The position numbers were made by a program, and so were the translations under genes. Below the pieces are notes generated by a model. That model made no database searches. It was not told the DNA's origin and saw nothing but the letters and a program-made list of their open reading frames with translations. Shown here in pieces: positions 17,330 through 61,735 of a DNA stretch of 64,000 nt (position 1 is the stretch's first letter; each line of letters starts with the position of its first letter). The stretch spans positions 62,001 to 126,000 of the forward strand of contig NZ_CP104004.1 in NCBI RefSeq assembly GCF_025231485.1, written 5' to 3'. This DNA is from Salinirubellus salinus. GTDB taxonomy: Archaea > Halobacteriota > Halobacteria > Halobacteriales > Haloarculaceae.

Positions 17330-18562
17330 ATGCCATACCTCGCGATGCGTCCGAACGGCGACCGGGTTCTCCCCCTGGACGTCGGAGACGATGACACGAT
17401 TCTGTGCCCACTCTGCCAAGAGTCACTCGGCGTTCGCCGATCACACTACAACCGGGGACGCTTTGTCTCGAAGCATTTCGTCCATCCGCGAGGCTCGGAG
17501 TGTCCGGGCGAGTCGAATCTCCACGCCAAACTCAAGACCATCGCGGCGATGAAACTCCGCGAGGTATTCGAGACAGCGTCTGTGGATCACGAGCGGCAAA
17601 TCCCCGGGACGAATCGAATTGCGGATGTCGTCGCGACGTTCTCCACCGAGCTGTATCCCTTTGGGAAGGGGCTCATTGTCGAGATTCAGCACAAGCACGA
17701 CGAGAAAGAGATCGGCCCGATCACCGGGGAGTATCTGAACGCGGGCTACTCGGTGTTCTGGGCGTACCAGTCCGATTTCGAGGGTCACGACATGACGTTC
17801 GCCGAACACCGCGTCAAGCGGCCGTGGCCCCACGCGGTCCCACTCGTCGAGGGAGTCGACGGCTATCCTGACCCCGTGCAACGATTGTTGGACCCCGAAC
17901 CGGCCGAGGAAGTGCGCCTGGAGGTGCCGTTTCCGACGGAGTATCTGCGGGCCCACGCGCTCGAGGTCATCCCGCCGCTGCGCGGCTACTACGATGCAGG
18001 GCGGTCTCCGGAGGGCTGGGAGCGAATCGACACGGTCTCGCTCCACGGCAAGGGCCGCGAGCGAGCGTGGGTGAACGTCCTACGCTCGCCGTCGAACCAC
18101 ATCTTCCTCGAGTTCTGGAAGAAGAACACTGAGGACGGCGAATCGGAGTATCTCATCACTCACATCGGGAGTGAGTTCCCCGAGCGATTCGAGGCGTTCA
18201 TGGAGGATACTCGGACGTGGTTTTCTTCAGAGGACGTCGACCAGCAGGTTGCACACTGGGTGGGTGGCGCGTCGTTGAGTTTCCGAGGGACGACGCTGTG
18301 CGAGTCGTGGTTGTCGCTGGTGAAGGTCCCGTTCGGCCCGGTGAAGTTCGTGGTCGCCCGCCGAGACATGAAGGGAAACACGCGGACGTGGGCGGTGAAC
18401 TACCGGAGCGGCGATCTCGGCCGGTTGGCGGTGTTGCGACACCCGATTCGGCGCTTGTTCGGGGACGTCACGGACACGGCCGCTGCTGTGACGGAGACGG
18501 GGGCCTCGACGGCGGCTCGCGAACGGATGGCGGGCAATTCGGCGGACGTAGTTCGCGACTAG
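17330..18562 (+). CDS. CoiA-like zinc-finger nuclease
   Basis: 410 residues. An N-terminal zinc-finger-like segment (CPLCQESLG with HYNRGRFVSKHFVH) precedes a restriction-like PD-(D/E)XK core: E..LH..LK helix, RIADVV (aspartate), and GLIVEIQHK (the E-x-Q/K half site). This is the layout of the competence protein CoiA family. In bacteria CoiA acts on DNA during natural transformation; in haloarchaeal plasmids the role is unknown and could be DNA processing during transfer or defence. The C-terminal 200 residues are not recognised. It converges on the minus-strand gene ending at 18559, with 4 bases of overlap. Confidence 0.7.
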   Translation: MPYLAMRPNGDRVLPLDVGDDDTILCPLCQESLGVRRSHYNRGRFVSKHFVHPRGSECPGESNLHAKLKTIAAMKLREVFETASVDHERQIPGTNRIADVVATFSTELYPFGKGLIVEIQHKHDEKEIGPITGEYLNAGYSVFWAYQSDFEGHDMTFAEHRVKRPWPHAVPLVEGVDGYPDPVQRLLDPEPAEEVRLEVPFPTEYLRAHALEVIPPLRGYYDAGRSPEGWERIDTVSLHGKGRERAWVNVLRSPSNHIFLEFWKKNTEDGESEYLITHIGSEFPERFEAFMEDTRTWFSSEDVDQQVAHWVGGASLSFRGTTLCESWLSLVKVPFGPVKFVVARRDMKGNTRTWAVNYRSGDLGRLAVLRHPIRRLFGDVTDTAAAVTETGASTAARERMAGNSADVVRD

Positions 18563-18999
18563 AGCTCGTCCCAGGCTGGTGGTTCGGGCGACCCGGCGAC
18601 ACCTGTTGGTCCGTGTTCGTGGAGGAGTGCGAGGACATCTGCCGATGGCGACGGTGAGATGCCCGACGCACGGGATTCCGACTCCGTTTCCGTTTTTGTC
18701 TGCGTCAGCGCGTCGGACTCGATGTGAATCTGAACCGGGGGTTCGTCCGGGTTCTCGGTCAGGATCTCGATATCGATTGGTAGCGTCTCCCCGCGCTCTT
18801 CGTAGATGGCGTCGCGGCGCTCGGTGAGCCGGCGGATGATGCCTCCTCGATTTCGGTGCGCTCGTTCGTACTCAAGGTACTGTTCGACGGTTTCGACTTC
18901 TCCCATCATCGTGATTGCGGGGGTGATGACGCGGTAGTTCGATGTATCGAGGAGTTTCTCCGGCGGGAGTTGTTCGAGGACGGCGGCGTCGTGGCTCAT
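18559..18999 (-). CDS. Hypothetical acidic protein
   Basis: 146 residues starting MSHDAAVLEQLPPEKLL, 4 bases after the stop of the upstream gene, so a two-gene operon. A central helical stretch (EQYLEYERAHRNRGGIIRRL) is followed by a strand-rich part and a low-complexity T/E/S tail. I do not recognise the family. The long alternative frame extending to 19479 is arginine-proline rich upstream of this start and was discarded. Confidence 0.6.
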   Translation of the reverse strand: MSHDAAVLEQLPPEKLLDTSNYRVITPAITMMGEVETVEQYLEYERAHRNRGGIIRRLTERRDAIYEERGETLPIDIEILTENPDEPPVQIHIESDALTQTKTETESESRASGISPSPSADVLALLHEHGPTGVAGSPEPPAWDEL

Positions 19000-19003
19000 C
19001 GGG

Positions 19004-19414
19004 TCACACCCGTGCTCGCTCGTGTTCGCTGGGGCTGGTCGCGTTCTCTGGGCCGAAGCGTCCCCACGCATCGAGGTGCGAGCAGGCATCGTCGACGACA
19101 TGTTCGATTGCGCGTTTGGTCGAGTCGGCTTCGGGTGGGCGTTCGACGATACGTGCGAGTTCGAGGGCGTCCTCGAGGCGGATGTGTGGGTGTGCTCGAT
19201 AAAGGGCTTCGACGACGGCCTTCGCGAGGGTTTCCGGGTCGTCTGTGTGGCGGTCTGTCTCGTCGAGGCGTGCCCTGACGACGGCACTGAGGTGTTGCAC
19301 ACGGCGGGCGCGGGCGATGCTGGCGTCGACGGAGTCCACGTCCGGAGTCGGGGTTGGCGGCGTCGGCTGGTGGTCGGTCGTGGTTCGGCTGGCGGTGGTG
19401 ATTTCGGTATCCAT
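19004..19414 (-). CDS. Hypothetical protein, first gene of operon A
   Basis: 136 residues. The N-terminal 25 residues are T/P-rich; the rest is helical (ARRVQHLSAVVRARLDE, ALELARIVERPPEAD). Its ATG is set by the conserved leader element just upstream, whose GGTGAGGG lies about 10 bases before it. The five-copy inverted repeat lies further upstream. Family not recognised. Confidence 0.6.
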   Translation of the reverse strand: MDTEITTASRTTTDHQPTPPTPTPDVDSVDASIARARRVQHLSAVVRARLDETDRHTDDPETLAKAVVEALYRAHPHIRLEDALELARIVERPPEADSTKRAIEHVVDDACSHLDAWGRFGPENATSPSEHERARV

Positions 19415-19423
19415 CGGGCAAGT

Positions 19424-19450
19424 CCCTCACCGATCCTGGGGGCGACAAAC
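19424..19450 (-). promoter_or_regulatory. T-box/GC-hairpin leader A
   Basis: Minus-strand order: TTTGTC, C-rich arm GCCCCC, short loop, G-rich arm ending GGTGAGGG, 9 bases, ATG 19414. The G arm doubles as Shine-Dalgarno. Confidence 0.65.
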
Positions 19451-19466
19451 GGGGCGCGAGTTCGAT

Positions 19467-19514
19467 TCCTACGCAACAACTATACTGACTCCCTACGTTG
19501 AGTGTTGCGTAGGA
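19467..19514. repeat. Inverted repeat, copy 1
   Basis: Perfect 12-bp arms TCCTACGCAACA (19467-19478) and TGTTGCGTAGGA (19503-19514), spacer 24. It lies between leader A and the divergent gene at 19517, whose ATG starts 2 bases after it, so it can control both directions. Confidence 0.8.
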
Positions 19515-19516
19515 AA

Positions 19517-20002
19517 ATGGCCTCGGACTCGCCCGACAGCACCGACGACGATTTGCCTGAGCCCCCGGATGAGTTGGCGAACTGGGTCGTGGACCCGCTT
19601 CAATCCCAGAGCATCCCGAAGCTCGAGCGTGTGATCGAGTACGCCGAGGAGTTGATCGCCCACAAGTCGCGACCCGTCTCTGTTGGGGGGGCGGACGAGA
19701 GCGAGGAGGCAGACGGGACTGGTGAGGTTCGGGGCGGTGAGACGGTTGATACACTGCCACAGAAGGACCAGCCTGCTCCGGAGCGCCGGCGTCGACAGAA
19801 GGAGTTCGAGGAGATGTCGAAGTCAGAGCGGATTGCGCTCTCGGATGAGCAGTTGCGGCGGTACGGGACGGTCGAGATACGGAAACTCGACTGTGGCCCT
19901 GGCTGCAAGCAGTGTCCACACGGCCCGTATCGCTATTGCGTCTTCAGAAATAGCAAGGGAACGGTGACCTCGAAGTACGCGGGGAAAGCGAGCGGCGAGT
20001 AG
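19517..20002 (+). CDS. Zinc-motif protein resembling DUF6788 C-terminus
   Basis: 161 residues from the ATG at 19517; the frame can extend to a GTG at 19502, but that lies inside the inverted repeat. Residues 1-110 are acidic and probably disordered. The C-terminal 40 residues hold a compact cysteine motif (CGPGCKQCPHGPY, then a later C) followed by TSKYAGK, resembling the end of DUF6788-type proteins that read CG..NC.C..G..HGPYWY...G..+SKYIG. It is divergent from operon A across the inverted repeat and is the only plus-strand gene in the 18.6-35.9 kb backbone block. Function unknown; nucleic-acid binding is a guess. Confidence 0.65.
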   Translation: MASDSPDSTDDDLPEPPDELANWVVDPLQSQSIPKLERVIEYAEELIAHKSRPVSVGGADESEEADGTGEVRGGETVDTLPQKDQPAPERRRRQKEFEEMSKSERIALSDEQLRRYGTVEIRKLDCGPGCKQCPHGPYRYCVFRNSKGTVTSKYAGKASGE

Positions 20003-20095
20003 GCGCCATCCCCCCTCTCCCGAGTGTACTGATCGGTAAATCCTGAGCCATTCCCCCGAGGTCGCGGCCTTGCTTACCCGCCGGATTCGTAGAAG

Positions 20096-20680
20096 TCAGT
20101 AGTGGACGTCGACGGGCGTGACGTACCACTCTTGGTCGTCGTCGGTGTCGCCGGTCGCGATGGTTTCGAGGAGATCGCGGTATTCCGAGGGAGTACGAAT
20201 GGCCGTTCCGTACTCGTCGTAGAGGTAGTACATCGGGCCGCTGTATTCCCCGACGCCGTACATCGCGTACCGGATGTCGCCGGTGTACGTGTCGATGTAG
20301 TCGTCTTCGTCGGTTGCGAGCCCGAGTGGATTCCAGGGTTCGACACTGGCTTCAACGCTCGCGCCTTCGAGGATTTCTTCATCGGAGAGTTGCTCGAAGC
20401 CGGCGCGGATGACGGCGAGTTTTCGTGAGAGTTCCTTCATCGTCGAGTGCCACGCCTCCTCGATGAGTCCGTTCCCGGTGTCGCTGTCTGCGGGGACGGA
20501 GCCGACGTCTCGGAGTACTTGGGGAAGCGAGTCGCTCCATCGACCACCGTCGGTCATGAGCGTGCCGTAGTCGAATGTGGGATACAGTGGGGCGTCGTAG
20601 CCATCGAAGAGGCCACGAGCGATTCCGGTTGCGTCCTCGGCGCAGTGGGCCTGCGAGACGACGCGGATGAGCATGTGCAT
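20096..20680 (-). CDS. Hypothetical protein, operon B
   Basis: 194 residues, tyrosine- and acid-rich. The C-terminal part (MYYLYDEYGTAI then SEYRDLLETIATG) resembles the end of the protein encoded at 24950-25699 (WFYLYDEAGVPVTSAGDFVDLLDGY), so the two may be distant paralogues sharing a roughly 60-residue module. ATG at 20680 or 20674. It lies 42 bases downstream of the first operon B gene. No function can be assigned. Confidence 0.65.
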   Translation of the reverse strand: MHMLIRVVSQAHCAEDATGIARGLFDGYDAPLYPTFDYGTLMTDGGRWSDSLPQVLRDVGSVPADSDTGNGLIEEAWHSTMKELSRKLAVIRAGFEQLSDEEILEGASVEASVEPWNPLGLATDEDDYIDTYTGDIRYAMYGVGEYSGPMYYLYDEYGTAIRTPSEYRDLLETIATGDTDDDQEWYVTPVDVHY

Positions 20681-20722
20681 AGGGAGCTGGAAGTGGAATT
20701 GGGATTGGATTTGAGAGTCGGG

Positions 20723-20956
20723 TCAGGGCGAGATGAAGAACGTTTCATCGCTAGCGCCGATACCGAACAGTGCGCCGGGGCCGTTTCCTTCAGGGTCCAT
20801 CGACGGATAGAGGATGGCCCCGGATTCGAGTTCGATGACGGGCGGCGAGTCCCCGGGTCGGGCAGTCCAGCCTTCGCGTTCGAGTTCTGTATCGCTCATC
20901 TTCCGGATGGCGACGATTCGCTGTCCTTCGATCTGGTCGTCTGTGTTGGGTTCCAT
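20723..20956 (-). CDS. Small conserved-type hypothetical protein, operon B
   Basis: 77 residues, compact and well formed: KMSDTELEREGW, PPVIELESGAILYPSMDPEGNGPG. It looks like a small beta-rich domain. The start at 20956 is supported by leader element B eight bases upstream. Family name not recalled. Confidence 0.65.
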   Translation of the reverse strand: MEPNTDDQIEGQRIVAIRKMSDTELEREGWTARPGDSPPVIELESGAILYPSMDPEGNGPGALFGIGASDETFFISP

Positions 20957-20964
20957 TTGGGGAT

Positions 20965-20992
20965 GGCCTCCGCTGCGCGGGGCCGGACAAAT
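20965..20992 (-). promoter_or_regulatory. T-box/GC-hairpin leader B
   Basis: Minus strand: TTTGTCC, nested stem GGCC...GGCC enclosing CCGC-GCA-GCGG, 8 bases, ATG 20956. An additional AT-rich palindrome CCTAATTTAGG lies 6 bases upstream of the box. Confidence 0.65.
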
Positions 20993-21049
20993 GAGCCTAA
21001 ATTAGGCGTCGCCGTCGGGGAGATACACAGTTTCGTGGGACAGGATTAG

Positions 21050-22108: not shown

Positions 22109-22139
22109 ATCTCGAATCTGCGGTGAGAAGGTGGTGATC

Positions 22140-22172
22140 GGCTAGCGGCGCACGGCGCCGCCGCCAACAAAC
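22140..22172 (-). promoter_or_regulatory. T-box/GC-hairpin leader C
   Basis: Minus strand: TTTGTT then GGCGGC and GCGCCGCTAGCC arms; 31 bases to the ATG at 22108. The stem is GC-rich like the others, but no Shine-Dalgarno lies in its 3' arm. Confidence 0.5.
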
Positions 22173-22194
22173 GTGCTCCTGGTGGTCACGCCGA

Positions 22195-23589
22195 CTAGGA
22201 CGTTGTCGGTGACGCGATTTCGATTGGCTTGGCCGAGTCTGCCCCGGCCTCGACGAGCGTGGTGAGGCCGTTGAGGGCGTTGACTGCGATGGGATTCTCG
22301 AGGTGGGTTTCGACGGTGGCGTATCCGTGGAGGGATGCCCACTCGACGGCGTCGGCGATGAGCGCACGAAGTGTGTTCACAGGGTAGGCGAGCAGCGGCG
22401 TTTGTACGGCCACAGATGCCAGCGTGACGGCCGCCGAGTTGTTGCGAGGGTTCGGCTCTCCGGAGTGGTCACGGACGGCGAGCGCGGCTACCAGGGCGTC
22501 CTCGGGGGTTCGATACCCAAAGCAGGCGACGAGTGGGGCAGGGGTGGTGTCTCCAATGGTCTCGTCCACGCCTAGGCTATATTTCTCGAAGAGCGCCTGT
22601 GTGTCCGGTGAGAGACTGCCTCCTCGACGGCCGAGCGTGTCTTCTCGGGTTTGGATCAGGTCGCCCTGTGGGATGTCCTGCAGTGAGGTATCCGCCCCAC
22701 CGTGTGCTGTGCCCCGGTCGGTAAGGTGGGACTGTTCGGCGTCGACACGACCGGCGGGCCGCCGGGCTTCGAGTGAGTGTTTGGAGAGGCAACGTCTGTA
22801 GCGACGTCTCCGGTAGGTTCCTCCACCGACGCGCCCGCTGCGAGACTGCCACTCGCGCAGGTCTGCGGTGGTGGTATCGAGGTGTGTGAATCCGGCGGCT
22901 CGGTACATCGTCCCATCGTTATCGTTTTGGACGCCTGCGTAGGTGAGGAGACGGTCGTAGCCTTCGAGCGTGGCACACCGGCAACACCGCGAGAGGAGCC
23001 ACGACCCGGTGTTCGCGGGCCGGTCGGGATGGGCGGCAAAGCGGTACAGTTCGAGGGTCTGTCCATCGGCGTTGTGTCGTCCATTGGGACGGCCGAGGAC
23101 GGCCATTGCAACGTCTCGCCCCTCGTAGACTGCGGTGAGCGCGATTCGGAACGGCTTGGTGACGGGGTCGTGCTGGTATTGGACGGTCGGATGTTTGAGG
23201 AAGCCGTTGACCCGTTCGCGAGCCCCGCGTCCACGTTCGGCGCGGAGTTCGAGGTGGTTGGTAGTGGGTGCTCCGCCGGGCGCGACGAGTCGGGGGTCGC
23301 AATCGCGATAGGTCCGATGGGCGTGATAGGAAGCCAAGGAGTCGAAGCCGGTCGCGACGATGACGACTTCACCGGAGTCGACCATCGTTTCGATCTCGTC
23401 GACGTCGGCAGTGGTGAGAGCAGAAGGATGTCCAAGACAGAGTGGGCCTCCTGGTGGGACGTACCACTCGATAATCGGAGTGGCGTCGTCGCCGACGTAG
23501 CGACCGACGGCATCGAGGTAGGGAAAGGCGACGATATCGCCGGGGCGAAGCGGTCGTATCACTCTGGACTCGGGGTGAGGGAGATACAC
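22195..23589 (-). CDS. Mom/XF1762-like GNAT protein, probable DNA-modifying acyltransferase
   Basis: About 464 residues from a GTG at 23589; no better start exists after the upstream stop at 23636, and the start is uncertain. Residues about 135-260 match the XF1762/Mom type GNAT core: FRIALTAVYEGRDVAMAVLG, RPNGRHNADGQTLELYRFA, WLLSRCCRCATLEGYDRLLTY, MYRAAGF. Phage Mu Mom converts adenine to a carbamoylmethyl form. A second, weaker GNAT-like region lies near the C-terminus (VACFGYRTPEDALVAALAV, IADAVEWASLHGYATVETH). It is the last gene of operon D. A DNA-base-modifying role is inferred from family resemblance; XF1762 members have not, to my knowledge, all been tested. Confidence 0.65.
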   Translation of the reverse strand: MYLPHPESRVIRPLRPGDIVAFPYLDAVGRYVGDDATPIIEWYVPPGGPLCLGHPSALTTADVDEIETMVDSGEVVIVATGFDSLASYHAHRTYRDCDPRLVAPGGAPTTNHLELRAERGRGARERVNGFLKHPTVQYQHDPVTKPFRIALTAVYEGRDVAMAVLGRPNGRHNADGQTLELYRFAAHPDRPANTGSWLLSRCCRCATLEGYDRLLTYAGVQNDNDGTMYRAAGFTHLDTTTADLREWQSRSGRVGGGTYRRRRYRRCLSKHSLEARRPAGRVDAEQSHLTDRGTAHGGADTSLQDIPQGDLIQTREDTLGRRGGSLSPDTQALFEKYSLGVDETIGDTTPAPLVACFGYRTPEDALVAALAVRDHSGEPNPRNNSAAVTLASVAVQTPLLAYPVNTLRALIADAVEWASLHGYATVETHLENPIAVNALNGLTTLVEAGADSAKPIEIASPTTS

Positions 23590-23635
23590 AGTTCCAGGTC
23601 GGGTGGTGAGGTGTGTTGTTCGCGGACCGGGGGCG

Positions 23636-24859: not shown

Positions 24860-24870
24860 CTCGTGGTTGT

Positions 24871-24898
24871 CCTCCACCGGCTACGGGGAGCCACAAAC
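24871..24898 (-). promoter_or_regulatory. T-box/GC-hairpin leader D
   Basis: Minus strand: TTTGTG, GGCTCC arm, loop containing AGCC, GGTGGAGG arm, 11 bases, ATG 24859. It drives a five-gene chain down to 22195. Confidence 0.65.
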
Positions 24899-24949
24899 TG
24901 GCGGTGACTTCGCGGCCGGGAACGGGCAACGTGGAATCGTAGACGTGCT

Positions 24950-26226: not shown

Positions 26227-26305
26227 GGTATCGGTCGAGTTCGTGGGTGGTGGTCGTATCACCGGGGCGAGACAGAACGGGAGGGAATTGCCGTCGGTGA
26301 CTGAT

Positions 26306-26332
26306 CCCGCGCTTTCGACGGGGGGCACAAAC
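26306..26332 (-). promoter_or_regulatory. T-box/GC-hairpin leader E
   Basis: Minus strand: TTTGTG, CCCCCC arm, GTCGAAAGC loop, GCGGG arm; 79 bases to the ATG at 26226, a longer leader than most. Confidence 0.5.
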
Positions 26333-26338
26333 AGGGTG

Positions 26339-29121: not shown

Positions 29122-29143
29122 AGGTTCGTAGCGGCTTGGGCCG

Positions 29144-29169
29144 CTCTACCGCTCGCGGAGGAGACAAAC
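29144..29169 (-). promoter_or_regulatory. T-box/GC-hairpin leader F
   Basis: Minus strand: TTTGTC, CTCCTCCGC arm pairing through CCGC-GA-GCGG, 22 bases to the ATG at 29121. A second short hairpin (GCGGC...GCCGC) follows inside the leader. Confidence 0.6.
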
Positions 29170-29185
29170 CGAGGCGTCGATTCAC

Positions 29186-29233
29186 TCCTACGCAACAACT
29201 GGAGTGTAAGCGAATCCACTCTGTTGCGTAGGA
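29186..29233. repeat. Inverted repeat, copy 2
   Basis: TCCTACGCAACA (29186-29197) and TGTTGCGTAGGA (29222-29233), perfect arms, spacer 24, starting 16 bases upstream of the operon F T-box. There is no gene on the other side, so here it serves one direction only. Confidence 0.8.
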
Positions 29234-30405: not shown

Positions 30406-30414
30406 GTTTCGAGT

Positions 30415-30440
30415 CCCTCACCGACTCGGGGGAGACAAAC
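30415..30440 (-). promoter_or_regulatory. T-box/GC-hairpin leader G
   Basis: Minus strand: TTTGTC, CCCCC arm, inner CCGA-G-TCGG, GGTGAGGG arm, 9 bases, ATG 30405. It is the cleanest copy of the element. Confidence 0.7.
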
Positions 30441-30457
30441 AGACGCGGGAATGCGTG

Positions 30458-30506
30458 TCCTACGCAACAAAGTGAACTCATCCGACGGCCCAATCGTTGC
30501 GTAGGA
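30458..30506. repeat. Inverted repeat, copy 3
   Basis: TCCTACGCAACA (30458-30469) and CGTTGCGTAGGA (30495-30506), one mismatch, spacer 25, 17 bases upstream of the operon G T-box. It ends in the region between operons G and H. Confidence 0.8.
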
Positions 30507-31835: not shown

Positions 31836-32842
31836 CGGTGATAGCCCTCCGCTCGGGATTGGTGTGAGACCGCGATTTCGGGGCTGACGAAGCGCCGCGC
31901 TCGGTGCGGGACGTCGATGCCCCGGGAAACGGGGAGGAAGATCGAGTCGCGGCCACCGCAGACGACGCTCGCGAGCAGTTCGTGTTTGCACATCACGCGC
32001 CACGGTGCGGACTGCTTGTACGGACACGCACAGGTCAGGGCATCTCCCCACGGGATGAGCGGGTACTGACTGCCGCTCTGGTATTCGCCGACCAGGAGAG
32101 GGGCGGGGAGGTCGATGCCGTAGTCAGCGAGTCGGACGGGGTCATCGGTCTGGGTATGCGAGAGCGCGGATTCTCGAAGGACGTACGTGGAATCGAGGGT
32201 GCGGTCTCGAGCGAAGGTGTCGGGGTCGGTGTCGTCGTCGACGAGGACTATCCCGACGAAGGCGTTAGGTTCGAGGAGGCGGTCGGCGTCGGGTGTGGAC
32301 CCGATACACGTCTCGATGAGTGAGCCGTACGACGAGTCCTTGAGGACCTGACTGAGGTTGGGCCCGGGGATGAGTTCGCGATACCATTTTTCCCGGCGCT
32401 GGCGTTCCTCCTCGAGAGCCTGTTCTGGGTTGGGTTGTTCGCGAGCGATTCGGAGTCGTGCTGCGAGGAACGCCGGTGCATCCGCGAGGGTGGCGTCATC
32501 GTCGACGTGGTCGTAGAATCGTTTCTCCTCGTGGATGCGAGCGGCACAGGAGGTTTCGGCATAGGCGAGGCCGAGTGGTTTCTGCTTGACGCCCTGCCAG
32601 GGGAGGGTGGCGGGATCTGTCGGGTCGTACTTCCACGGGTTGTAGCTGCCGAGAAGTTGGTCGCGGCGGACGGGGCCACCGCGGATGAAGTCGAGGCGGA
32701 TTTGGTGTTCGATTGGTTCGACGTTGGCCGGGTCGCGTTCGACGTCGTACTCGTATTCTCGGTCGGTGTGGGCGAGCGCCCCCGGCGGGAGGACGAGACT
32801 GGGCACGTTGCCGTCGGCTGTATAGAGTGTTCGACAGGACAT
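31832..32842 (-). CDS. SWIM zinc-finger protein, first gene of operon H
   Basis: 336 residues. A C-terminal SWIM motif CACPYKQSAPWRVMCKHELLA (about residues 272-292; C-x-C...C-x-H) is preceded by about 270 residues that I do not recognise, with a basic-acidic helix (PEQALEEERQRREKWYREL). SWIM domains bind DNA or proteins. It is coupled to a methylase-like gene and a zinc-finger gene, so the operon may act on DNA together. Its leader (H) is longer than most. Confidence 0.65.
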   Translation of the reverse strand: MSCRTLYTADGNVPSLVLPPGALAHTDREYEYDVERDPANVEPIEHQIRLDFIRGGPVRRDQLLGSYNPWKYDPTDPATLPWQGVKQKPLGLAYAETSCAARIHEEKRFYDHVDDDATLADAPAFLAARLRIAREQPNPEQALEEERQRREKWYRELIPGPNLSQVLKDSSYGSLIETCIGSTPDADRLLEPNAFVGIVLVDDDTDPDTFARDRTLDSTYVLRESALSHTQTDDPVRLADYGIDLPAPLLVGEYQSGSQYPLIPWGDALTCACPYKQSAPWRVMCKHELLASVVCGGRDSIFLPVSRGIDVPHRARRFVSPEIAVSHQSRAEGYHR

Positions 32843-32874: not shown

Positions 32875-32903
32875 GCCCCGCTACCGTTTCGGGGGCGACA
32901 AAT
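32875..32903 (-). promoter_or_regulatory. T-box/GC-hairpin leader H
   Basis: Minus strand: TTTGTC, then a 5-bp stem GCCCC...GGGGC enclosing CGAAACGGTAGC, 32 bases to the ATG at 32842. Confidence 0.6.
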
Positions 32904-32919
32904 TGGCTAGGAGTGACTC

Positions 32920-35844: not shown

Positions 35845-35863
35845 GGGATGGTAGGGGACGAAC

Positions 35864-35890
35864 GCCCTCGCTGACGCGGGGCACACAAAC
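35864..35890 (-). promoter_or_regulatory. T-box/GC-hairpin leader I
   Basis: Minus strand: TTTGTGT, stem GCCC...GGGC with inner CGC-GTCA-GCG, 19 bases to the ATG at 35844. It ends 10 bases from the left inverted repeat of the cargo island. Confidence 0.6.
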
Positions 35891-35900
35891 CGACGTGGCT

Positions 35901-41757: not shown

Positions 41758-41790
41758 GGGGTTAAGTTGGCGAGGCCGAGTCTGTTCGGC

Positions 41791-41817
41791 TCCTCCACGC
41801 TTCCGGGAGTGACAAAC
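41791..41817 (-). promoter_or_regulatory. T-box/GC-hairpin leader J
   Basis: Minus strand: TTTGTCA, stem CTCC...GGAG around CGGAAGCGT, 33 bases to the ATG at 41757. Confidence 0.6.
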
Positions 41818-41935
41818 GATACTCAAATTCGCCTCCGGCCACGTGCAACGGTCGGTGGCTGGAGGCGGCCTCCGGTGACTCAAGAGAGACCATCTGCGGT
41901 GCGTTCGAGACGCTTTCGAGCCGTCGCTGAGTGGG

Positions 41936-43501: not shown

Positions 43502-43859
43502 TGGAGTGGAGTGTTTCCTCGTACGAAAAGTGGCAACCGCCAATGGGTGGGACAGCGGTTGTTGAGAGAGACCGGAGAACGGAGGTGGAAGCGCGGTCGG
43601 GGGCGGTGCAATAGTTCGAGAAGAGACGGACGAAGAGAGGTCAGGACAGGAGCCTCAGCGGAGAGGGGAGAGGAGATCGCCTTGAACAGGAAAGTGGTGA
43701 CTCTGACGAATGGCGTGCCGGTGCGTCCTCTGTAGGGGAGAAAGAACGGAGGGTGTTCCGTTCTGAGGACGGAGGGCGAGTTGTGGTACACCCACGCGGA
43801 ACCGCACTGGGCCGTTTGTGTCGGCACAACGCGCTAGGAGCGCTCCGTGTGGACGTCCG
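43502..43859 (-). other. About 358-nt untranslated leader of operon K
   Basis: No frame is convincingly coding; the candidate ORFs are proline-arginine rich. On the minus strand it contains self-complementary words such as CCGTCCTCAGAACGG (about 43757-43771). It separates leader element K from the ATG at 43501, unlike every other copy, so either a small unrecognised ORF or a long structured leader is present. Confidence 0.4.
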
Positions 43860-43888
43860 CCCTCCACCGCATCCGGGGGAGACAAAAC
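43860..43888 (-). promoter_or_regulatory. T-box/GC-hairpin leader K
   Basis: Minus strand: TTTTGTC, CTCCCCC arm, GGATGC loop, GGTGGAGGG arm. The nearest good start is 358 bases away at 43501. Confidence 0.6.
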
Positions 43889-43891
43889 GAG

Positions 43892-43940
43892 TCCTACGCA
43901 ACGGCTAGACCGACCGGCGAGTGTAGTCTGTTGTGTAGGA
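43892..43940. repeat. Inverted repeat, copy 4 (diverged)
   Basis: TCCTACGCAACG (43892-43903) and TGTTGTGTAGGA (43929-43940), spacer 25. Only 3 bases lie between this copy and the T-box, against 15-17 in the others. Confidence 0.7.
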
Positions 43941-46681: not shown

Positions 46682-46687
46682 CTCTGT

Positions 46688-46713
46688 CCCCTCACCGTCC
46701 TCGGGGGCCAAAA
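46688..46713 (-). promoter_or_regulatory. T-box/GC-hairpin leader L
   Basis: Minus strand: TTTTGG, CCCC...GGGG stem with inner CCG-AGGA-CGG, Shine-Dalgarno in the 3' arm, 6 bases to the ATG at 46681. Drives the PCNA operon. Confidence 0.65.
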
Positions 46714-46845
46714 CTGAGCATCGGTATCGTACGGGGACGAACCGGCGTTGGTGAGAGTGGTCGAGCAGGACGATACTGAGGCGATGGTCTGGGGTGCTGG
46801 CTGTGAGCTGTCGGCTCTCGGTGTCGGGAGATGTCGACGTAGTCG

Positions 46846-47100: not shown

Positions 47101-47109
47101 TCTGGGTGT

Positions 47110-47136
47110 CCTCCACCGATTTCGAGGGAGACAAAC
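47110..47136 (-). promoter_or_regulatory. T-box/GC-hairpin leader M
   Basis: Minus strand: TTTGTC, CCTC...GAGG stem with inner CGA-AA-TCG, 9 bases to the TTG start at 47100. Confidence 0.65.
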
Positions 47137-47151
47137 GAGGCAGTGGGTTAC

Positions 47152-47200
47152 TCCTACGCAACAGAGTGGAGTGGGTGGTCGGTCCAGTTGTTGCGTAGGA
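47152..47200. repeat. Inverted repeat, copy 5
   Basis: TCCTACGCAACA (47152-47163) and TGTTGCGTAGGA (47189-47200), perfect arms, spacer 25, 15 bases upstream of the operon M T-box. The TFB gene stop is 42 bases further on. Confidence 0.8.
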
Positions 47201-47241: not shown

Positions 47242-48339
47242 CTACCCGAGGTAGTCGTCGAGATTGCCGTCTGGATCGGGGAGATCACCGGCATCGTCGA
47301 GCGAGAGAAGTTCCCGGCGGATGTTCCGGATGGTCGTTGGAGTGGAGAAGCCTGCGTCGGCGAGTCGCTGCTGTGTAAGTTTGAGGTTGGTGAGCTCGCT
47401 TTCATCGTGAGCGTGATAGAGGCACGCGGCGGCGACCCCGGCGGGCTGTCGGCCGTTGGCGAGGACACCGACAGCGGGGGCGGTGACGAGTTGGTGGGCT
47501 CGTCGTTCGACCCGGGGGTGGGCGTCGACGGCGTTGGCGAGTCGAGGGAGGAAGTCCTGCGGGAGCGGCGGTGGCGTTGCGAGTTCGAACTCGCGATTCA
47601 GCAGTCGATAGGCGCTTTTGATATCGGATTCGCCGACGCGGGCAACGGCGGTGAGTTCCTCGAGGAACCGTGGCAGGCGCTCGAGGCGACAGGCGGCGAA
47701 GATGCTGGCGGTCGCGATGGCTTCGATGGAGCGCCCACGGAGGAGATTGTTCTCCCAGGCGTCGCGAAAGAGTCTCGCAGCGCGGTCGTGGATCGGTGTG
47801 GGGAGCTCGGCCGCACTCACGAGACGGGCGATTTCTCCAAGGCCGGTACGGAGCGACTGGTCGTGAGTGGTACTCGCTTTCGCTCGGTCGTCCCATTTAC
47901 GAAGGCGTTTGAACTGGCGCTGTGTCTTCGATGAGAGTTCGTTCCCGTAGCCGTCGCGGTAGGAGCCAATCTCGGTCGGGAGTCCCTTGTCGTGGCGTCG
48001 GATGGTCGTGGGAGCGCCGCCCCGAGCGGGTTGCCGTTCGCCATCGGCGGTTGTCTCCCACTGGAGTTCCCGATCAAGGATGTCTCGGGTGACCACGAGG
48101 CCGCACGCCTGACAGAAGGTTTCAGTCTCGTCGACGACGAGGTGTTCGTCGGTCGCACACTCGGGGCAAATTGGGTCACCGACCGGTTGGGTGCGTTCGG
48201 GCGCCAATTTCTGGGCAGACGACGGCTCGGAGTCGATAGCTGGGGCGAGTCCCCGCTGGTGGGTACCGAGGGGGCTGCCGGACGGATGGGGCCCGGGACG
48301 GGCGTTGCTGTTCGCGGCCTCGAGATAGCGTTGGGACAT
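47242..48339 (-). CDS. tfb: Transcription initiation factor TFB
   Basis: 365 residues. After about 55 variable residues comes a zinc ribbon (CPECATDEHLVVDETETFCQAC), a B-finger/linker segment (DRELQWETTADGERQ), then two cyclin folds: GLGEIARLVSAAELP, FRDAWENNLLRGRSIEAIATASIFAACR and FLPRLANAVDAHPRVERRAHQL, GRQPAGVAAACLYHAHDE. TFB bridges TBP-bound promoters and RNA polymerase and reads the BRE. Haloarchaea carry several TFBs, and plasmid-borne ones are divergent; this copy could serve the unusual promoters of its own replicon (inference). Confidence 0.92.
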   Translation of the reverse strand: MSQRYLEAANSNARPGPHPSGSPLGTHQRGLAPAIDSEPSSAQKLAPERTQPVGDPICPECATDEHLVVDETETFCQACGLVVTRDILDRELQWETTADGERQPARGGAPTTIRRHDKGLPTEIGSYRDGYGNELSSKTQRQFKRLRKWDDRAKASTTHDQSLRTGLGEIARLVSAAELPTPIHDRAARLFRDAWENNLLRGRSIEAIATASIFAACRLERLPRFLEELTAVARVGESDIKSAYRLLNREFELATPPPLPQDFLPRLANAVDAHPRVERRAHQLVTAPAVGVLANGRQPAGVAAACLYHAHDESELTNLKLTQQRLADAGFSTPTTIRNIRRELLSLDDAGDLPDPDGNLDDYLG

Positions 48340-48709
48340 GGAGAGTGGTGAGGAAGGGGACGGAAGAGACCAGGAAAGGGCAGTTCGACCCCTCTAGCGA
48401 AGCGGGGACAATAAACTGAGCGCGATCAATAGTCAGCGCAAACCCAATATCACGCCGTTTTGATGCCTCGATCAGTGATCGGTGTCAGCAGTCCTGCTGA
48501 AATGAGGGTGCGTGTGCCATGTCTTGATATATAGGGTTGCGAATTACATTATATTTATTACATTTCATCATCTTCATAGAGATGCTGGTCAGAGGTGCTC
48601 CCCTTCCCACCCCCCGTTGACGCCTCTATTGCCGCCGAAATAGAGACCAACAACGTGTTAAATACACCCTCTGTCTCTCGCAGACTGGTGCTGAGGGACG
48701 ATTGAGGGG
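48340..48709. other. Intergenic interval, backbone-cargo junction
   Basis: Holds leader N, then an AT-rich tract around 48520-48570 (TTGATATATAGG and ATTATATTTATTACATTT), unusual for this window. No gene is visible. It marks the border between TFB and the second cargo island, next to a tyrosine recombinase, so an attachment site may lie here. Confidence 0.45.
48389..48415 (-). promoter_or_regulatory. T-box/GC-hairpin leader N
   Basis: Minus strand: TTTATTGT, CCCC...GGGG stem around GCTTCGCTAGA, 49 bases to the TFB ATG at 48339. TTTATT here looks like a real TATA box, a hint that the T-box is the TATA element. Confidence 0.6.
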
Positions 48710-49414
48710 CTATCGGTGGTGTACTCGACGCAGGGCATCCGCTGTCGCTGTCCCCGAGATGCGGATATACTTCTGGGCAGTCGCCAGATCGCTCCATCCC
48801 ATGAGCGCTTGGAGTGGCACCGGCGCGACACCCTTGTACGCATGGTAACTGGCGGCGGTTGCCCGCAGGCAGTGTGGATAGACACGACCTGGTAGGTCGG
48901 CCTCGGTTGCGGCAGCCTGTATTCGCCTGTTGATTGTTGAGCGTGAGCGCGGAAACGCATCGTACCGATTGGCGAAGCGTTCGAGACACAGCTCCAGCCG
49001 CAGTGTGAGGTCGAACGGGATGAGCCGAGCCGAAGCCACCGTTTTCGGATGCCACCGTGACTCGATAGCCCCCTCGACAGACAGCCCACTGTTGTGGGTC
49101 GCTTCCTGTCGAGCTTGTCGTTGGCAGTACCCACATTGACACGGTTCGTGCTGTGGAATGCGAATCGTTCGACGGTTCCAGTTCACCCACGTAGTCTGAA
49201 AGTGCGCAATCTCGCCAGCGCGAAGCCCGAGTCGACCCGCGAGGAGACAGATGAATCGTGCTTCGAAATCGTGCGGTGCTGGAAGGACTGAGCAGGCCTC
49301 AAGCAGGAGTTCGAACTGGCGGTCAGTTAGGACATCCTCGTGGGTGTGCCGGGTCGTGAGCGCCCGCCGATGACGATCCGCCCATTCAGTTGTGGGTTGG
49401 TTGTGGTGGGACAC
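48710..49414 (-). CDS. Tyrosine recombinase, compact archaeal type
   Basis: 234 residues. Catalytic residues: arginine in GRLGLRAGEIAH, H-x-x-R in YPHCLRATAASYHA, then GWSDLATAQKYIR with the tyrosine nucleophile. The arm-binding N-terminal domain is short (about 30 residues), so the protein is close to a bare catalytic domain. An inserted CQCGYC element near residue 91 may bind zinc. It sits at the edge of the second cargo island and could have mobilised it. Confidence 0.8.
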   Translation of the reverse strand: MSHHNQPTTEWADRHRRALTTRHTHEDVLTDRQFELLLEACSVLPAPHDFEARFICLLAGRLGLRAGEIAHFQTTWVNWNRRTIRIPQHEPCQCGYCQRQARQEATHNSGLSVEGAIESRWHPKTVASARLIPFDLTLRLELCLERFANRYDAFPRSRSTINRRIQAAATEADLPGRVYPHCLRATAASYHAYKGVAPVPLQALMGWSDLATAQKYIRISGTATADALRRVHHR

Positions 49415-53464: not shown

Positions 53465-53494
53465 CAGGCAACTGAAAACGGGTAGCGAATCCCG

Positions 53495-56084: not shown

Positions 56085-56142
56085 GAGTGGCTGGATGACT
56101 GGCTGGCTGGTCGTGGAGATGCACAGTTACCGGCTTGGGGTG

Positions 56143-56670: not shown

Positions 56671-56759
56671 GAGAGAGTCTGGTAGTGGTGTGAGTCGTGT
56701 GTGAGTGGGACTCGAGAGCGTCCTCGAAGTCCGAGTTGCGGGCCGGGAGCGACGAGCAC

Positions 56760-57299: not shown

Positions 57300-57317
57300 T
57301 GGTGATTCGGACGAGTG

Positions 57318-57343
57318 CCCTCCACCGATTCGAGGGAGACAAA
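57318..57343 (-). promoter_or_regulatory. T-box/GC-hairpin leader O
   Basis: Minus strand: TTTGTC, CCTC...GAGG stem with inner CGA...TCG, 18 bases to the ATG at 57299. Confidence 0.65.
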
Positions 57344-57540
57344 GTGGGCGTGCTGGTGGAGCGGGGCGACTCAGATTAAGGAGCATCGCTGTACGGAAAA
57401 TCGGGCGTCGCGTGTGGAGGGTCACTCGCGTTCAAGTAACCGAATCGAACGCGGATGAGACGTGGGTGGGATGCTTGCGTATCCCCCTGAGAGAGAACGA
57501 CCGTGTTGGAGTGCTGTTGTGGAAGGCCTCTTGCGACGAA

Positions 57541-58404: not shown

Positions 58405-58442
58405 TAATGTGAATTGGAGAGGGTAGTGGGCGGAGCGTGGGC

Positions 58443-59396
58443 CTACGCGAGTGGGTCGGCCTCATCGACGAGGAGATATTTCCCGATGACGCGGCCGCTG
58501 ACTCGGTAGTAGCGACCGACGAGGGCGTCGGGGAGGTCGTTCGCGACGACGCTCGTATCGAGAGCGTCCATCGCTTGCTGTTTGGCCTCCTCGATGGTGA
58601 TGTCGGCGAGGGCTTCGGTCGCCTCCTTGTCGAAGATGGCGTGCTGGACGCGCACGCCGTCGTCGAAGACGGCCTTGATGCGGAGGTCGAACTCGCCTTC
58701 GACCTTTCCGTGTTCGGCACACCGGCCGTCCTGGAGGACGCGCGTACAGCCGTCGTGGGGACAGCGCTTGATGAGCCCGCTTCCGGACTGGATCGCGACC
58801 ATCGGGGCCTCGATGGTCAACTCCTCGGCGTTGTCGCCGACTTCGATATCGTCATCGACGGGATCGATGACCGTCCGGGAGTTGAGGTTGATGGAGTAGC
58901 AGCCTTCGTACTCGCTGGTGACGACGTTGTCGAGTCGGTACACGCCGTCCGCGTCGAGTTCGGGAAGCTCGGCTTTGGCCCACTTGGTGAACTTGAGTCG
59001 GCCGCTCTCGTCGCCGATGAGCCCGACCTGGGCGATGCTGTCGCTGGTCGGCTCCCATAGGTCGACGACTTTGACGGTGACGCTGACCCACTGGCCGTCG
59101 GTGTTGATTTCGTCGAGCGTCGTGTCGCTGGCACTCTGCGAGGGGAGTGCGAGGTCGTCGTATTCGATGCCGAGCACCTCGAGGTAGTGGTTGCGCGTGG
59201 CGCGAGTAGCCTCCTCGAGCGGCACGTTGTAGCCGTTAACCATCTGGTCGAGCCGGGTGACGATATCGTCGACACTCGGGAGGGCTTCATCGCCGGCGTC
59301 GTCGGGGAACTGTTCGATGAGGGTGGTCGCGGTCGTCGCGAGGTCGTCGCTGGAGGCGTTGACCGCCGAATCTGCGGGTGTTGCGTTGGTGGACAT
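58443..59396 (-). CDS. RPA-like single-stranded DNA-binding protein
   Basis: 317 residues. An OB-fold (WVSVTVKVVDLWEPTSDSIAQVGLIGDESGRLKFTKWAK..., about residues 100-150) and an Rpa-type zinc segment CPHDGCTRVLQDGRCAEHG (about 215-233) followed by a second OB-like domain (FDLRIKAVFDDGVRVQHAI). The order OB, zinc finger, OB and the adjacent RPA-associated gene match Haloferax rpa3-rpap3. It binds single-stranded DNA in replication and repair. A plasmid copy beside PCNA suggests the replicon carries its own replication accessory factors. Confidence 0.82.
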   Translation of the reverse strand: MSTNATPADSAVNASSDDLATTATTLIEQFPDDAGDEALPSVDDIVTRLDQMVNGYNVPLEEATRATRNHYLEVLGIEYDDLALPSQSASDTTLDEINTDGQWVSVTVKVVDLWEPTSDSIAQVGLIGDESGRLKFTKWAKAELPELDADGVYRLDNVVTSEYEGCYSINLNSRTVIDPVDDDIEVGDNAEELTIEAPMVAIQSGSGLIKRCPHDGCTRVLQDGRCAEHGKVEGEFDLRIKAVFDDGVRVQHAIFDKEATEALADITIEEAKQQAMDALDTSVVANDLPDALVGRYYRVSGRVIGKYLLVDEADPLA

Positions 59397-59539
59397 TGGT
59401 TCGAGTTTGGTTCTGGTTCGATGGCTGTTTGAGGTGTCTTCTGGGGGAGTTTCTCCACGAGGGAGACGGGCCGAGAAGCGTCGGAACGAGGCACACGAGA
59501 GCCGTGAGAGACACGGTATCTCTCGTCTCTGTTCCGATT
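59397..59539 (-). other. 143-nt leader of the RPA-like operon
   Basis: It lies between leader element P and the ATG at 59396. A hairpin ACCGTGTCTCTCACGG occurs near 59500-59516. A small frame starting GTG at about 59509 overlaps the gene start and is not convincing. Confidence 0.35.
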
Positions 59540-59567
59540 CCCCTCACCCCCTCTTGGGGAGCAAAAA
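59540..59567 (-). promoter_or_regulatory. T-box/GC-hairpin leader P
   Basis: Minus strand: TTTTTGCT, stem CCCC-AAGA-GGGG, then GGTGAGGGG; 143 bases to the ATG at 59396. Confidence 0.6.
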
Positions 59568-59617
59568 CTCTGGGAGGGTTGCTGGTCGCGACGGCCTGCG
59601 AGTCCTGGCCTGCTCGG

Positions 59618-59896
59618 TCAGCGAGCGTCTTCGAGGCTGATGGTTTCGTCGGCACTAATCCATCCGCCGAGGGCGGCACGCTCGATGATGGCGAACGACC
59701 CGTCTTGGAGCGTGGCGAAGCGCGTCCCGACGGTCGGGCCTGGCCCCGGCGGGTCAGGCCGGTATCGGTCGTCGGGATTGACCGCTCGCGAGGGATCTTC
59801 GCCGTCGACGATATCGAGGGCAAACAGCTCCTCGTCGGTTTCGGTATCGGTGTCGCTGTCGCTGCTATCGGGATTGGAGTTGGTATGTGAGCACAT
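59618..59896 (-). CDS. Small acidic protein after OB-TFIIS gene (DUF7331-like)
   Basis: 92 residues from the ATG at 59896. Acidic start (MCSHTNSNPDSSDSDTDT), then RFATLQDGSFAIIERAALGGWISADETISL, a short beta-hairpin domain resembling the haloarchaeal DUF7331 pattern (a strand with D/G turn, then WI). It follows the upstream gene by 10 bases. Role unknown. Confidence 0.5.
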   Translation of the reverse strand: MCSHTNSNPDSSDSDTDTETDEELFALDIVDGEDPSRAVNPDDRYRPDPPGPGPTVGTRFATLQDGSFAIIERAALGGWISADETISLEDAR

Positions 59897-59906
59897 GAGT
59901 GTGAAG

Positions 59907-61643
59907 TTAGCTGTCGTCGCGCCAGCGCTGGCCGCAACTGGCACACGAGAGGAGTCTGGTTGGTGGCTCGTCGATGGAGCGGAGTTGGACGAGTCGGTAG
60001 TGCGCCCGGTCGTGGGAACACTCTGGACACCGGCAGGTCGTCGTGGGCAGGCCGAGGCTCGGTTCTGTCGTCGCCGTCGTCTCGGAGGTGTCGGGAGTCG
60101 CGACGCCGGTGAGCGCGTTCGTGCTGGGGTCCTCGGTGGTCGCTGCGGTATCGCCGGTGGCGTCGGAGTCGTCGTTCTCGAGTGCGGTTCCGAAGTGGTC
60201 GAGGTTGCGCACGAGCGCCCAGAGACGGCGCTTGCCCTGTGGGACGGGATGGTCTGGGACGGGCATCGAGTCGGGCTGTGAGGTGGCAATGACGTCGTGG
60301 ACGGCGGCGTGAATCGCGTCTCGGTCGGCGTCGGAGTCGACGAGGACGGAGACGACGTTGGCCTGTTCGCGCCACCAGGTCGGGAGTGGGATGCCGCCGT
60401 CTTCGTCGAATATTTCGGTAGCTTTGAGCCATTCGTGGGCGTCCATCTGCCCGCTCTCTTCGGCGTCGAGGCGGTCGACCGGCGTGTGGACGGGACGAGA
60501 GACTTCCTGCACACCGGGTGTGCCGAGCGCGGGTATCGAGCGGCCGCCGTGCCGCTGGAAGGGCTGTTCGATGCCGCGCTCACGATTTGCTTTGGCGTAT
60601 TTCGCCCAGTCGACGTTGGGGATGTCGCCGCGTGGCGCTGGCCCGTCGCCAGCCTCGATGACCGTGATGCGAGTCTCGGAGTCGGCGGCGAGCGTCGCTT
60701 GGCCCTGATATTTCCCGACTTTCCCGGCGACAACGCGCACGAGGTCGCCTTCGTGGAGGATGGTTCCCTGATTGGATTTCGTCCAGACGGTGAATTTGAT
60801 GGTCCCGGTGTCGTCTTCGATGAGGCCGACCTGCTGTTGGGTGCGGGATTTGGGTTGCCAGAGTCGCGTGACGGTCCCCTGGATGTCGGCTTCGACGTTA
60901 TACTTCGAGGGGATGATCGGCACGGAAGAGATGGGCTGGATGACGCCCGCTTCCTGGTAGAGTTCGTCGAGGACGTTCGATTGGGCGGTGAAGAGGTCCT
61001 GTCCTCGGGCGACCTTGCTGGCGAGGCGGTGTTCGAGGATGGGCTTGTTCGGGGGTGTGACGAGGCGGTCGGTGATTCGGTCGGCAGCGTCGTGCACGCG
61101 CTGGGTGGTTTCCTCGTCGAGCTGCTCGAACGGGTCGTAGGAGTGGATGTTGTCGCCGATGACGCGGTCGTTGTAGTCGGCCCGGCGCTCGCGGTACTCG
61201 GTGAGGAGTTCCCCCCTGCGCCGTGTTTCCCGGTCGATGCCCGCGACGTGGGCGGCGAGGGCTTTCTCTCGCTGGCGTTTACGCTCTTCGCGAAGTCCGT
61301 GGAGGCGCTCTTGAGCTTCGAGTGGGAGTCCACTGAGGTCCTCGTCGGTGAGGTCCATCGGGTCGATGTCTCGGGCTTGCGTGGTGCGGAGGCTTGCACC
61401 CACCCAGTAGGCGTCGAGTTCCTGTCCGCCGGTGCCTTCGATTTCGAGGCCGAACTCGTCGTATTCGGGCTGGGTCCGGGCGGCCATCATGAGCTCGCCT
61501 GCGTTCTCGAGGCGGACGCCGAGACAGTCGCTCTCGAGGTGGGGGCTCTCGTAGAGGCCGCGAAGTCGGAGTTCGTCGAAGCGGTCATCTTGTTCGACAT
61601 CGCTGTTCGAGAGGCGGTGCTGTCCGTCGTGGTAGTATGTCAT
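59907..61643 (-). CDS. RPA-type OB-fold protein fused to TFIIS/TFS zinc ribbon
   Basis: 578 residues from the ATG at 61643. Helical N-terminus (residues 1-240), including a basic-acidic stretch LEAQERLHGLREERKRQREK. The OB-fold lies at about 265-335 (VEADIQGTVTRLWQPKSRTQ, QVGLIEDDTGTIKFTVWTK, LVRVVAGKVGKYQGQATLA). After a roughly 180-residue linker, the C-terminus is a zinc ribbon: CPECSHDRAHYRLVQLRS then IDEPPTRLLSCASCGQRW. This matches the TFS/TFIIS ribbon, including the DE dipeptide that reaches into the RNA polymerase active site. I know of no described fusion of this kind. A link between single-stranded DNA binding and transcription is inferred. Confidence 0.75.
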   Translation of the reverse strand: MTYYHDGQHRLSNSDVEQDDRFDELRLRGLYESPHLESDCLGVRLENAGELMMAARTQPEYDEFGLEIEGTGGQELDAYWVGASLRTTQARDIDPMDLTDEDLSGLPLEAQERLHGLREERKRQREKALAAHVAGIDRETRRRGELLTEYRERRADYNDRVIGDNIHSYDPFEQLDEETTQRVHDAADRITDRLVTPPNKPILEHRLASKVARGQDLFTAQSNVLDELYQEAGVIQPISSVPIIPSKYNVEADIQGTVTRLWQPKSRTQQQVGLIEDDTGTIKFTVWTKSNQGTILHEGDLVRVVAGKVGKYQGQATLAADSETRITVIEAGDGPAPRGDIPNVDWAKYAKANRERGIEQPFQRHGGRSIPALGTPGVQEVSRPVHTPVDRLDAEESGQMDAHEWLKATEIFDEDGGIPLPTWWREQANVVSVLVDSDADRDAIHAAVHDVIATSQPDSMPVPDHPVPQGKRRLWALVRNLDHFGTALENDDSDATGDTAATTEDPSTNALTGVATPDTSETTATTEPSLGLPTTTCRCPECSHDRAHYRLVQLRSIDEPPTRLLSCASCGQRWRDDS

Positions 61644-61707
61644 CGGTAGGTCACTCCGTGGTGGTTGATTCGAGAGGCGGGCGGCTGTCGGCCACCCACC
61701 TCTCGAA

Positions 61708-61735
61708 CCCCCTCGACCCCCTTGGGGGGCCAATA
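61708..61735 (-). promoter_or_regulatory. T-box/GC-hairpin leader Q
   Basis: Minus strand: TATTGG, stem CCCCC-AA-GGGGG, then CGAGGGGG; 64 bases to the ATG at 61643. This is the last copy toward the right end. Confidence 0.55.

Follow-up and report, generated by a model that had tools for sequence, protein, structure and literature searches.

What kind of signal is repeated ahead of the backbone genes of a plasmid of the haloarchaeon Salinirubellus salinus, and is it read in DNA or in RNA? The window analysed here is the whole 64,000-nt stretch of contig NZ_CP104004.1 (positions 62,001 to 126,000). A module of about 31 nt is repeated in it, laid out as YYNG, a T-rich box (the T-box, mostly TTTGTC), a C-rich arm, a short loop and a second arm of the form GGTG(R)RGGG. 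An initial annotation, made from the letters of the window, had described 17 such copies, and we found all of them, all on the minus strand between 18.5 and 61.7 kb. It had offered two interpretations: a hairpin of the 5' untranslated region that masks the Shine-Dalgarno (SD) sequence, or a promoter with the T-box as TATA element and the hairpin DNA as an operator. Our reading of the sequences favours a repeated, plasmid-specific core promoter with a TATA-like T-box and a self-complementary start region, to which we give a probability of about 0.52. The copies are listed below with the T-box and the position of its first base.

61708-61739, minus strand: module 1 (TATTGG, 61735), preceding the gene of an OB-fold/TFIIS-type Zn-ribbon protein (61640-59907)
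59540-59571, minus strand: module 2 (TTTTTG, 59567), preceding a gene (59396-58443) whose orthologues are annotated as replication factor A
57316-57347, minus strand: module 3 (TTTGTC, 57343), 44 nt from T-box to ATG
48388-48419, minus strand: module 4 (TTTATT, 48415), preceding the TFB gene
47108-47139, minus strand: module 5 (TTTGTC, 47135)
46686-46717, minus strand: module 6 (TTTTGG, 46713), ahead of a short frame and the PCNA gene
43859-43890, minus strand: module 7 (TTTGTC, 43886)
41789-41820, minus strand: module 8 (TTTGTC, 41816), preceding the AAA ATPase gene (41757-40144)
35862-35893, minus strand: module 9 (TTTGTG, 35889), preceding the VWA gene (35844-32920)
32875-32906, minus strand: module 10 (TTTGTC, 32902), preceding a gene at 32842-31832
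30412-30443, minus strand: module 11 (TTTGTC, 30439), 34 nt from T-box to ATG
29141-29172, minus strand: module 12 (TTTGTC, 29168), 47 nt from T-box to ATG
26304-26335, minus strand: module 13 (TTTGTG, 26331)
24870-24901, minus strand: module 14 (TTTGTG, 24897), 38 nt from T-box to ATG
22144-22175, minus strand: module 15 (TTTGTT, 22171), preceding the DUF6610 gene, with arms of reversed polarity (GGCGGCG/CGCCGC)
20964-20995, minus strand: module 16 (TTTGTC, 20991), with GGCC/GGCC arms and 35 nt from T-box to ATG
19422-19453, minus strand: module 17 (TTTGTC, 19449), 35 nt from T-box to ATG

The module recurs across a family of plasmids. A tblastn search with the AAA ATPase of the window retrieved 34 plasmid records, nine at 85% identity or more and 12 near 72%. 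The sample comprised 11 annotated plasmid loci, 40 genome regions and 34 genome loci, 20 of the last group entering the later scans (of the 14 excluded, 13 were apparent repeats of pieces already in the sample; L138 was omitted). Subfamilies were defined by ATPase identity to the window: A (74-99%), B (about 70-72%), C (about 44-61%) and D (about 36-47%). Scanning the window and the 11 plasmid loci with a sequence-only model built on the 17 copies gave 99 matches. Those in the plasmid loci were without exception on the backbone strand, and the Halosimplex locus (L035) had none; the upstream regions of L035 and L036 keep the module layout with different T-boxes. Later site sets came from iterated two-block matrices, one per subfamily, and sites were counted with a start-codon frame. 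For subfamily A, 23 pieces yielded 195 sites, or 129 unique blocks, with 197 matches on the forward (backbone) strand and 19 on the reverse; the more distant B, C and D have 119, 62 and 78 sites. The consensus T-box differs between them: TTTGTC (A), TTTATC (B), TTTGTA (C) and TTTTTC (D).

The model is more specific than its T-box. Bare TTTGTC occurs in the window at chance level (21 observed, 20.5 expected), and the model found one extra place (43432, plus strand, 9.0 bits) above its weakest seed (8.7 bits), the 17 seeds scoring in their own model by construction. All nine matches at E ≤ 0.1 in the genome of origin (two contigs, 4.38 Mb) were on the plasmid contig; weak chromosomal copies could be missed, since this threshold excludes roughly half of the known 17. 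The consensus pattern with up to three mismatches matched four places on the plasmid contig and three on the chromosome. Nor is the element scattered inside genes at a similar frequency, an outcome that the initial annotation had reckoned with: wholly intergenic matches made up 46 of 49 in four annotated plasmids of subfamily A, against 13-17% expected. Its statement that no copy stands ahead of a cargo gene fits by eye, for those genes that were classified. A literature search, to which subscription journals were largely closed, returned no description of the module among the matches listed.

The two arms covary. The proposal that pairing is kept while the bases vary was borne out for the 17 window copies and for subfamily A, with shuffled and slid-register controls. 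In the window copies, 79.4% of the cells of a 4-bp helix are paired against 67.8±3.0% after shuffling (0/500), all four pairs show two-sided changes, the covariation score is 0.351 against 0.156±0.041 (0/500), and every slid register scores below the true one. When 3' arms were exchanged between window copies and refolded, the difference was significant (p=0.006). A structure-free comparison of 192 column pairs over 98 non-redundant sites ranked three consecutive antiparallel pairs at the top (z 6.6, 5.0 and 3.3; best off-register 3.0). Among 70 subfamily-A representatives, 227 of 350 cells of a 5-pair register were Watson-Crick against 199.5±5.5 expected (0/5000), with z of 0.35-0.78 for registers displaced by one or two; within this subfamily the best three of 271 column pairs were in register (3.68, 3.31 and 3.22; next 2.68). 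Greedy clustering at 20/30 identity placed 171 of the 195 sites in one of 15 clusters, and with one representative per cluster pairing still exceeded permutation (p 0.004-0.04 in six draws). Arm polarity is reversed ahead of several DUF6610 gene orthologues (window, Halorarius and GDY1).

The signal is uneven. Pairing is weaker in subfamily D (z 2.29), and the per-plasmid pairing test did not fall below 0.05 for Halorarius, G313 or G360. The arm-exchange test gave p=0.001 for Halorarius with its reversed-polarity copy included, p of 0.055-0.08 for Haloglomus, GDY1 and Halorientalis, and about 0.7 for Salinigranum and H. rubicundus. In the pooled 189 sites, off-register column pairs (4.05 and 4.02) rival the in-register one (4.15), which we put down to differences between subfamilies. 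The stem itself is short: as free hairpins the window copies are moderately stable (minimum free energy -8.9 to -23.4 kcal/mol; RNAfold, 43-nt pieces), RNAfold favours alternative pairings in several, and the outermost pair is open in nine of the 17. G·T cells were not favoured over A·C cells (z -1.65 against -1.09; subfamily A), contrary to expectation for an RNA stem, although the counts are small.

The module is also bounded. Counted from the first T of the T-box, conservation extends from -4 to +26 (46 representatives). In 13 groups of diverged orthologues, compared ungapped, mean identity is 0.25-0.34 over -100 to -5, near chance, and rises inside the module to 0.79 (-4 to +5), 0.61 (+6 to +15) and 0.52 (+16 to +27). 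Hence, conservation on the 5' side begins with the module. The AT content of the T-box is 0.75, against 0.35-0.49 upstream, and exact TTTWWW at -45 to -20 is rare (2% of 98 sites, 0.6% at random places). The 261 cargo-strand genes were a weak control, with TTWWWW at one mismatch or less in 47% and a shallow AT peak. An ATG frame begins 27-59 nt from the T-box at 41 of 84 unique subfamily-A sites. Of the sites whose ATG frame lies no further than 130 nt away, nine of 27 in C and nine of 35 in D have the start codon 24-29 nt from the T-box. An in-frame stop no more than four codons upstream pins the start at 25-30 nt in nine of 33 listed C and D sites, and in some C and D genes the start codon adjoins the 3' arm.

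A second element, an inverted repeat of the form CCTACGYWAC-N15..27-GTWRCGTAGG (arm gaps of 15-16 and 23-27), lies just 5' of some modules. Its arm GTWRYGTAGG was found within 120 nt upstream of 49 of the 195 subfamily-A modules, against 1% of random places, usually with the inverted partner arm (44 of 49), and it lies 5-44 nt upstream of the T-box. The 20 non-redundant distances to the T-box are mainly 5-6, 16-19 and 37-39 nt (others 23, 30, 33 and 43). It is probably the binding site of a plasmid regulator. The window has the following examples.

47153-47199: inverted repeat CCTACGCAAC..GTTGCGTAGG ahead of module 5
43893-43939: inverted repeat ahead of module 7, left arm with one change
30459-30506: inverted repeat ahead of module 11
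29187-29232: inverted repeat ahead of module 12
19468-19513: inverted repeat ahead of module 17

The backbone that carries the modules encodes, according to Pfam, TFB, PCNA, DUF6166, AAA ATPase, VWA, N6 methylase, DUF6610 and OB-fold/TFIIS-ribbon proteins, and replication factor A is annotated on the backbone of relatives; among the 20 minus-strand proteins scanned, Pfam was silent for four of ten and six of ten in the two batches. The TFB gene is located as follows.

47242-48339, minus strand: plasmid-encoded TFB with TFIIB repeats (PF00382, 1.8e-27) and Zn ribbon (PF08271, 1.3e-8), behind module 4

A TFB match is present in 32 of 53 pieces, from subfamilies A, B and D and one C piece, and absent from the other 21, some of them short or partial. 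Viral contigs had no relatives of the plasmid TFB or ATPase.

Some other observations concern the same plasmids. The subfamily-D plasmid of Natronomonas marina (L036) has an annotated TATA-box-binding protein (32062-32622), plus a TFB-type protein. One genome (L081-L082) has an ATPase relative with one internal stop codon on a chromosome-sized contig of 2.9 Mb, and one module match in 40 kb; this is perhaps a decaying integrated plasmid copy. In the window, a minus-strand frame at 48710-49414, near the TFB gene and at the edge of a cargo block, resembles a tyrosine recombinase by eye, and the backbone protein at 22195-23559 (minus strand) falls just below the cut-off of the Mom family (24.8 against 27.1 bits). 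By eye, a second inverted repeat tends to lie between the module and a distant start codon, as at 61708-61640, 41789-41757, 32875-32842 and 29141-29120.

We favour the promoter because conservation starts at the 5' boundary of the module, two T-box dialects fit the haloarchaeal TTWT (TTTATC in B, TTTTTC in D), some start codons in C and D occur at leaderless spacing, and an inverted repeat lies just upstream of a quarter of the copies. Such a promoter would place the backbone genes under common control. The T-box and the preceding YYNG would stand in for the TFB recognition element (BRE) and TATA, and transcription would be expected to start some 26-30 nt past the T-box, at or just behind the 3' arm, yielding leaderless transcripts for some genes in C and D and short-leadered ones for many genes in subfamily A, that of the window. 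The stretch between would be a conserved, GC-rich, self-complementary initiation region with arms that tend to match each other and might act as a regulator-binding dyad or as a DNA hairpin. A regulator would probably bind the upstream repeat in about a quarter of the subfamily-A copies. From its presence on the plasmids we infer that the plasmid TFB is a candidate reader of the promoter.

Several observations weigh against this reading. The W of TTWT is G in 99 of 129 unique subfamily-A blocks and mostly G in C. The BRE CGAAA is absent: YYNG stands there in A, an A-rich flank is lacking in C and D, and the purine-rich flank of B comes near CGAA without reaching it (A or G at -2 in 90 of 99, A at -1 in 57 of 99). 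The expected -10 region is GC-rich with no clear AT peak (maximum 0.54 at T+15, for a predicted start position), and base-pair covariation is unexpected for a plain promoter; in B (z 0.55) and C (z 1.31), moreover, arm pairing is not significant. The B, C and D site sets contain false positives (forward/reverse 128/45, 71/23 and 86/32). Start codons in subfamily A cluster at 34-39 nt (26 of the 41; one at 31, 14 at 44-59) and not at 26-31 nt, so that leaderless spacing was rejected there and leaders of roughly 8-13 nt would follow; in the accessible part of a Haloferax study, leaders of six or more additional nt, up to 20, are rare (PMC4983044). The first ATG frame lies less than 24 nt from the T-box, before the expected start, in nine of 156 sites of all subfamilies, which may be false sites or misplaced starts. 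Upstream, TTTWWW with at most one mismatch occurs at -45 to -20 in 16% of sites against 8% at random, about twofold, and a minority of copies may be served by another promoter there. Single orthologue groups retain identities up to 0.50 at -30 to -5 (0.50 at -20 to -13). The test for helical phasing of the inverted repeat is weak and varies with the period: the Rayleigh p ranges from 0.30 to 0.003 across six of them, with 0.05 at 10.5 bp, which is no more than suggestive. The twofold excess of upstream TATA-like sequences and the few start frames too near the T-box led us to lower our confidence to the value given above.

The simplest account of the covariation itself would be a structured RNA leader. 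T-box and hairpin would then be transcribed as part of polycistronic mRNAs, either at the 5' end or internally, and would affect translation or processing, with a plasmid-encoded protein perhaps binding them. In favour of this, the arms covary like the two strands of a helix, the reversed polarity ahead of several DUF6610 genes fits, and a second hairpin follows the module in several distal copies, by eye. The SD-like 3' arm would belong to this leader: GGTGA/GGAGG resembles the SD consensus, the arm mostly ends 9-12 nt before the ATG of proximal genes, and GGTG is present in 0.92 of 13 proximal against 0.45 of 56 distal representatives, a difference that is not significant by orthologue group. 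However, the near-chance identity and rare TATA upstream leave no evident promoter for the leader, subfamily A shows no preference for G·U, some C and D genes begin right against the 3' arm, and Rfam had no match to the module at gathering score. The masking of the SD by the hairpin, as initially proposed, was not supported. The mean fraction with an SD match of at least five bases was 0.72 in seven proximal orthologue groups and 0.46 in 12 distal ones (p=0.31, starts taken as the first long frame), so SD-likeness has no significant link to start proximity. The 3' arm keeps its spacing to the T-box and not to the start codon; the described position of GGTGAGGG or GGTGGAGGG near the start codon applies to some copies and fails for the rest. 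Some distal groups keep a full SD-like arm about 53-157 nt from the start, which it can hardly serve. We consider an RNA leader rather unlikely, though it is the main rival of the promoter.

The remaining explanations keep the element in DNA or dismiss it. One possibility is an ordinary promoter in which a plasmid repressor or activator uses the dyad as its operator. The centre of the dyad would lie roughly 10 bp ahead of the expected start, a usual place for archaeal repressor sites. Yet the half-sites vary by copy within one plasmid and tend to match all the same, which a protein of fixed preference does not need, and we find this improbable. The arms could instead form a hairpin, extruded from supercoiled or single-stranded DNA, and be recognised as structure, as in phage N4, with RPA-like proteins and TFB helping. 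The absence of a G·U preference, the OB-fold protein of the backbone and the replication factor A of its relatives agree with this, whereas the hairpin would have a stem of only some 3-5 bp and a loop of some 12-14 nt, pairing is not significant in B and C, and Pfam named no RNA polymerase among the 20 proteins scanned. We know of no precedent for a hairpin promoter with an archaeal RNA polymerase, and hold the idea to be very improbable, although stem bases that vary while pairing tends to persist are also a feature of N4 early promoters in the accessible part of that work (PMC4496689). By analogy, plasmid TFB and RPA-like proteins might jointly read a TATA-like box coupled to a DNA hairpin, with promoter identity partly structural, as an archaeal counterpart of N4, the boldest reading and a long shot in our view. 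A chance or composition artefact of C-rich followed by G-rich sequence would explain why most paired cells are plain C-G and why off-register pairs score as high in the pooled sites; the permutation and slid-register controls (subfamily A and window copies), the conservation among orthologues and the intergenic position make it hardly credible.

Should the promoter reading be right, a haloarchaeal plasmid lineage would have a private promoter code, in many copies and four dialects, beside its own TFB, and whether the TFBs of mobile elements read their own promoters would become directly testable. The role of the arms that flank the expected -10 region is the unexplained residue of this reading, and we know of no explanation in archaeal transcription for matching arms between TATA and start.

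Three known systems bear comparison, each as described in the accessible part of the report cited. The canonical haloarchaeal promoter consists of BRE CGAAA, TATA TTWT and a -10 WW (PMC4983044). The module resembles it in the distance of the T-box from some C and D start codons and in the TTTATC with purine-rich flank of B, and differs from it in the TTTGTC of A, the GC-rich -10 region, the additional conserved 3' block and the pairing arms. The virion RNA polymerase promoters of phage N4 are three in number and share common bases and inverted repeats around -11 with variable stems, a layout that the module may resemble; non-conserved stem bases are immaterial there if the hairpin is kept, and the single-stranded DNA-binding protein is an activator (PMC4496689). 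Unlike N4, which has its own virion RNA polymerase, the module would be expected to use the archaeal polymerase of the host. The class I and II intergenic repeats of halovirus HF2 differ in the motifs quoted and in that no covarying arms are reported for them in that text, and their starts are established, where those of the module are predicted (PMC8707807). They are proven promoters by reporter assay, with a TATA that begins at -26, a start at a conserved G and conservation from -7 to +1, and in one class I repeat a 9-bp inverted repeat replaces the gamma motif (PMC8707807). Like the module as we read it, they combine an AT-rich TATA motif with, in class I, a conserved block around the start (PMC8707807).

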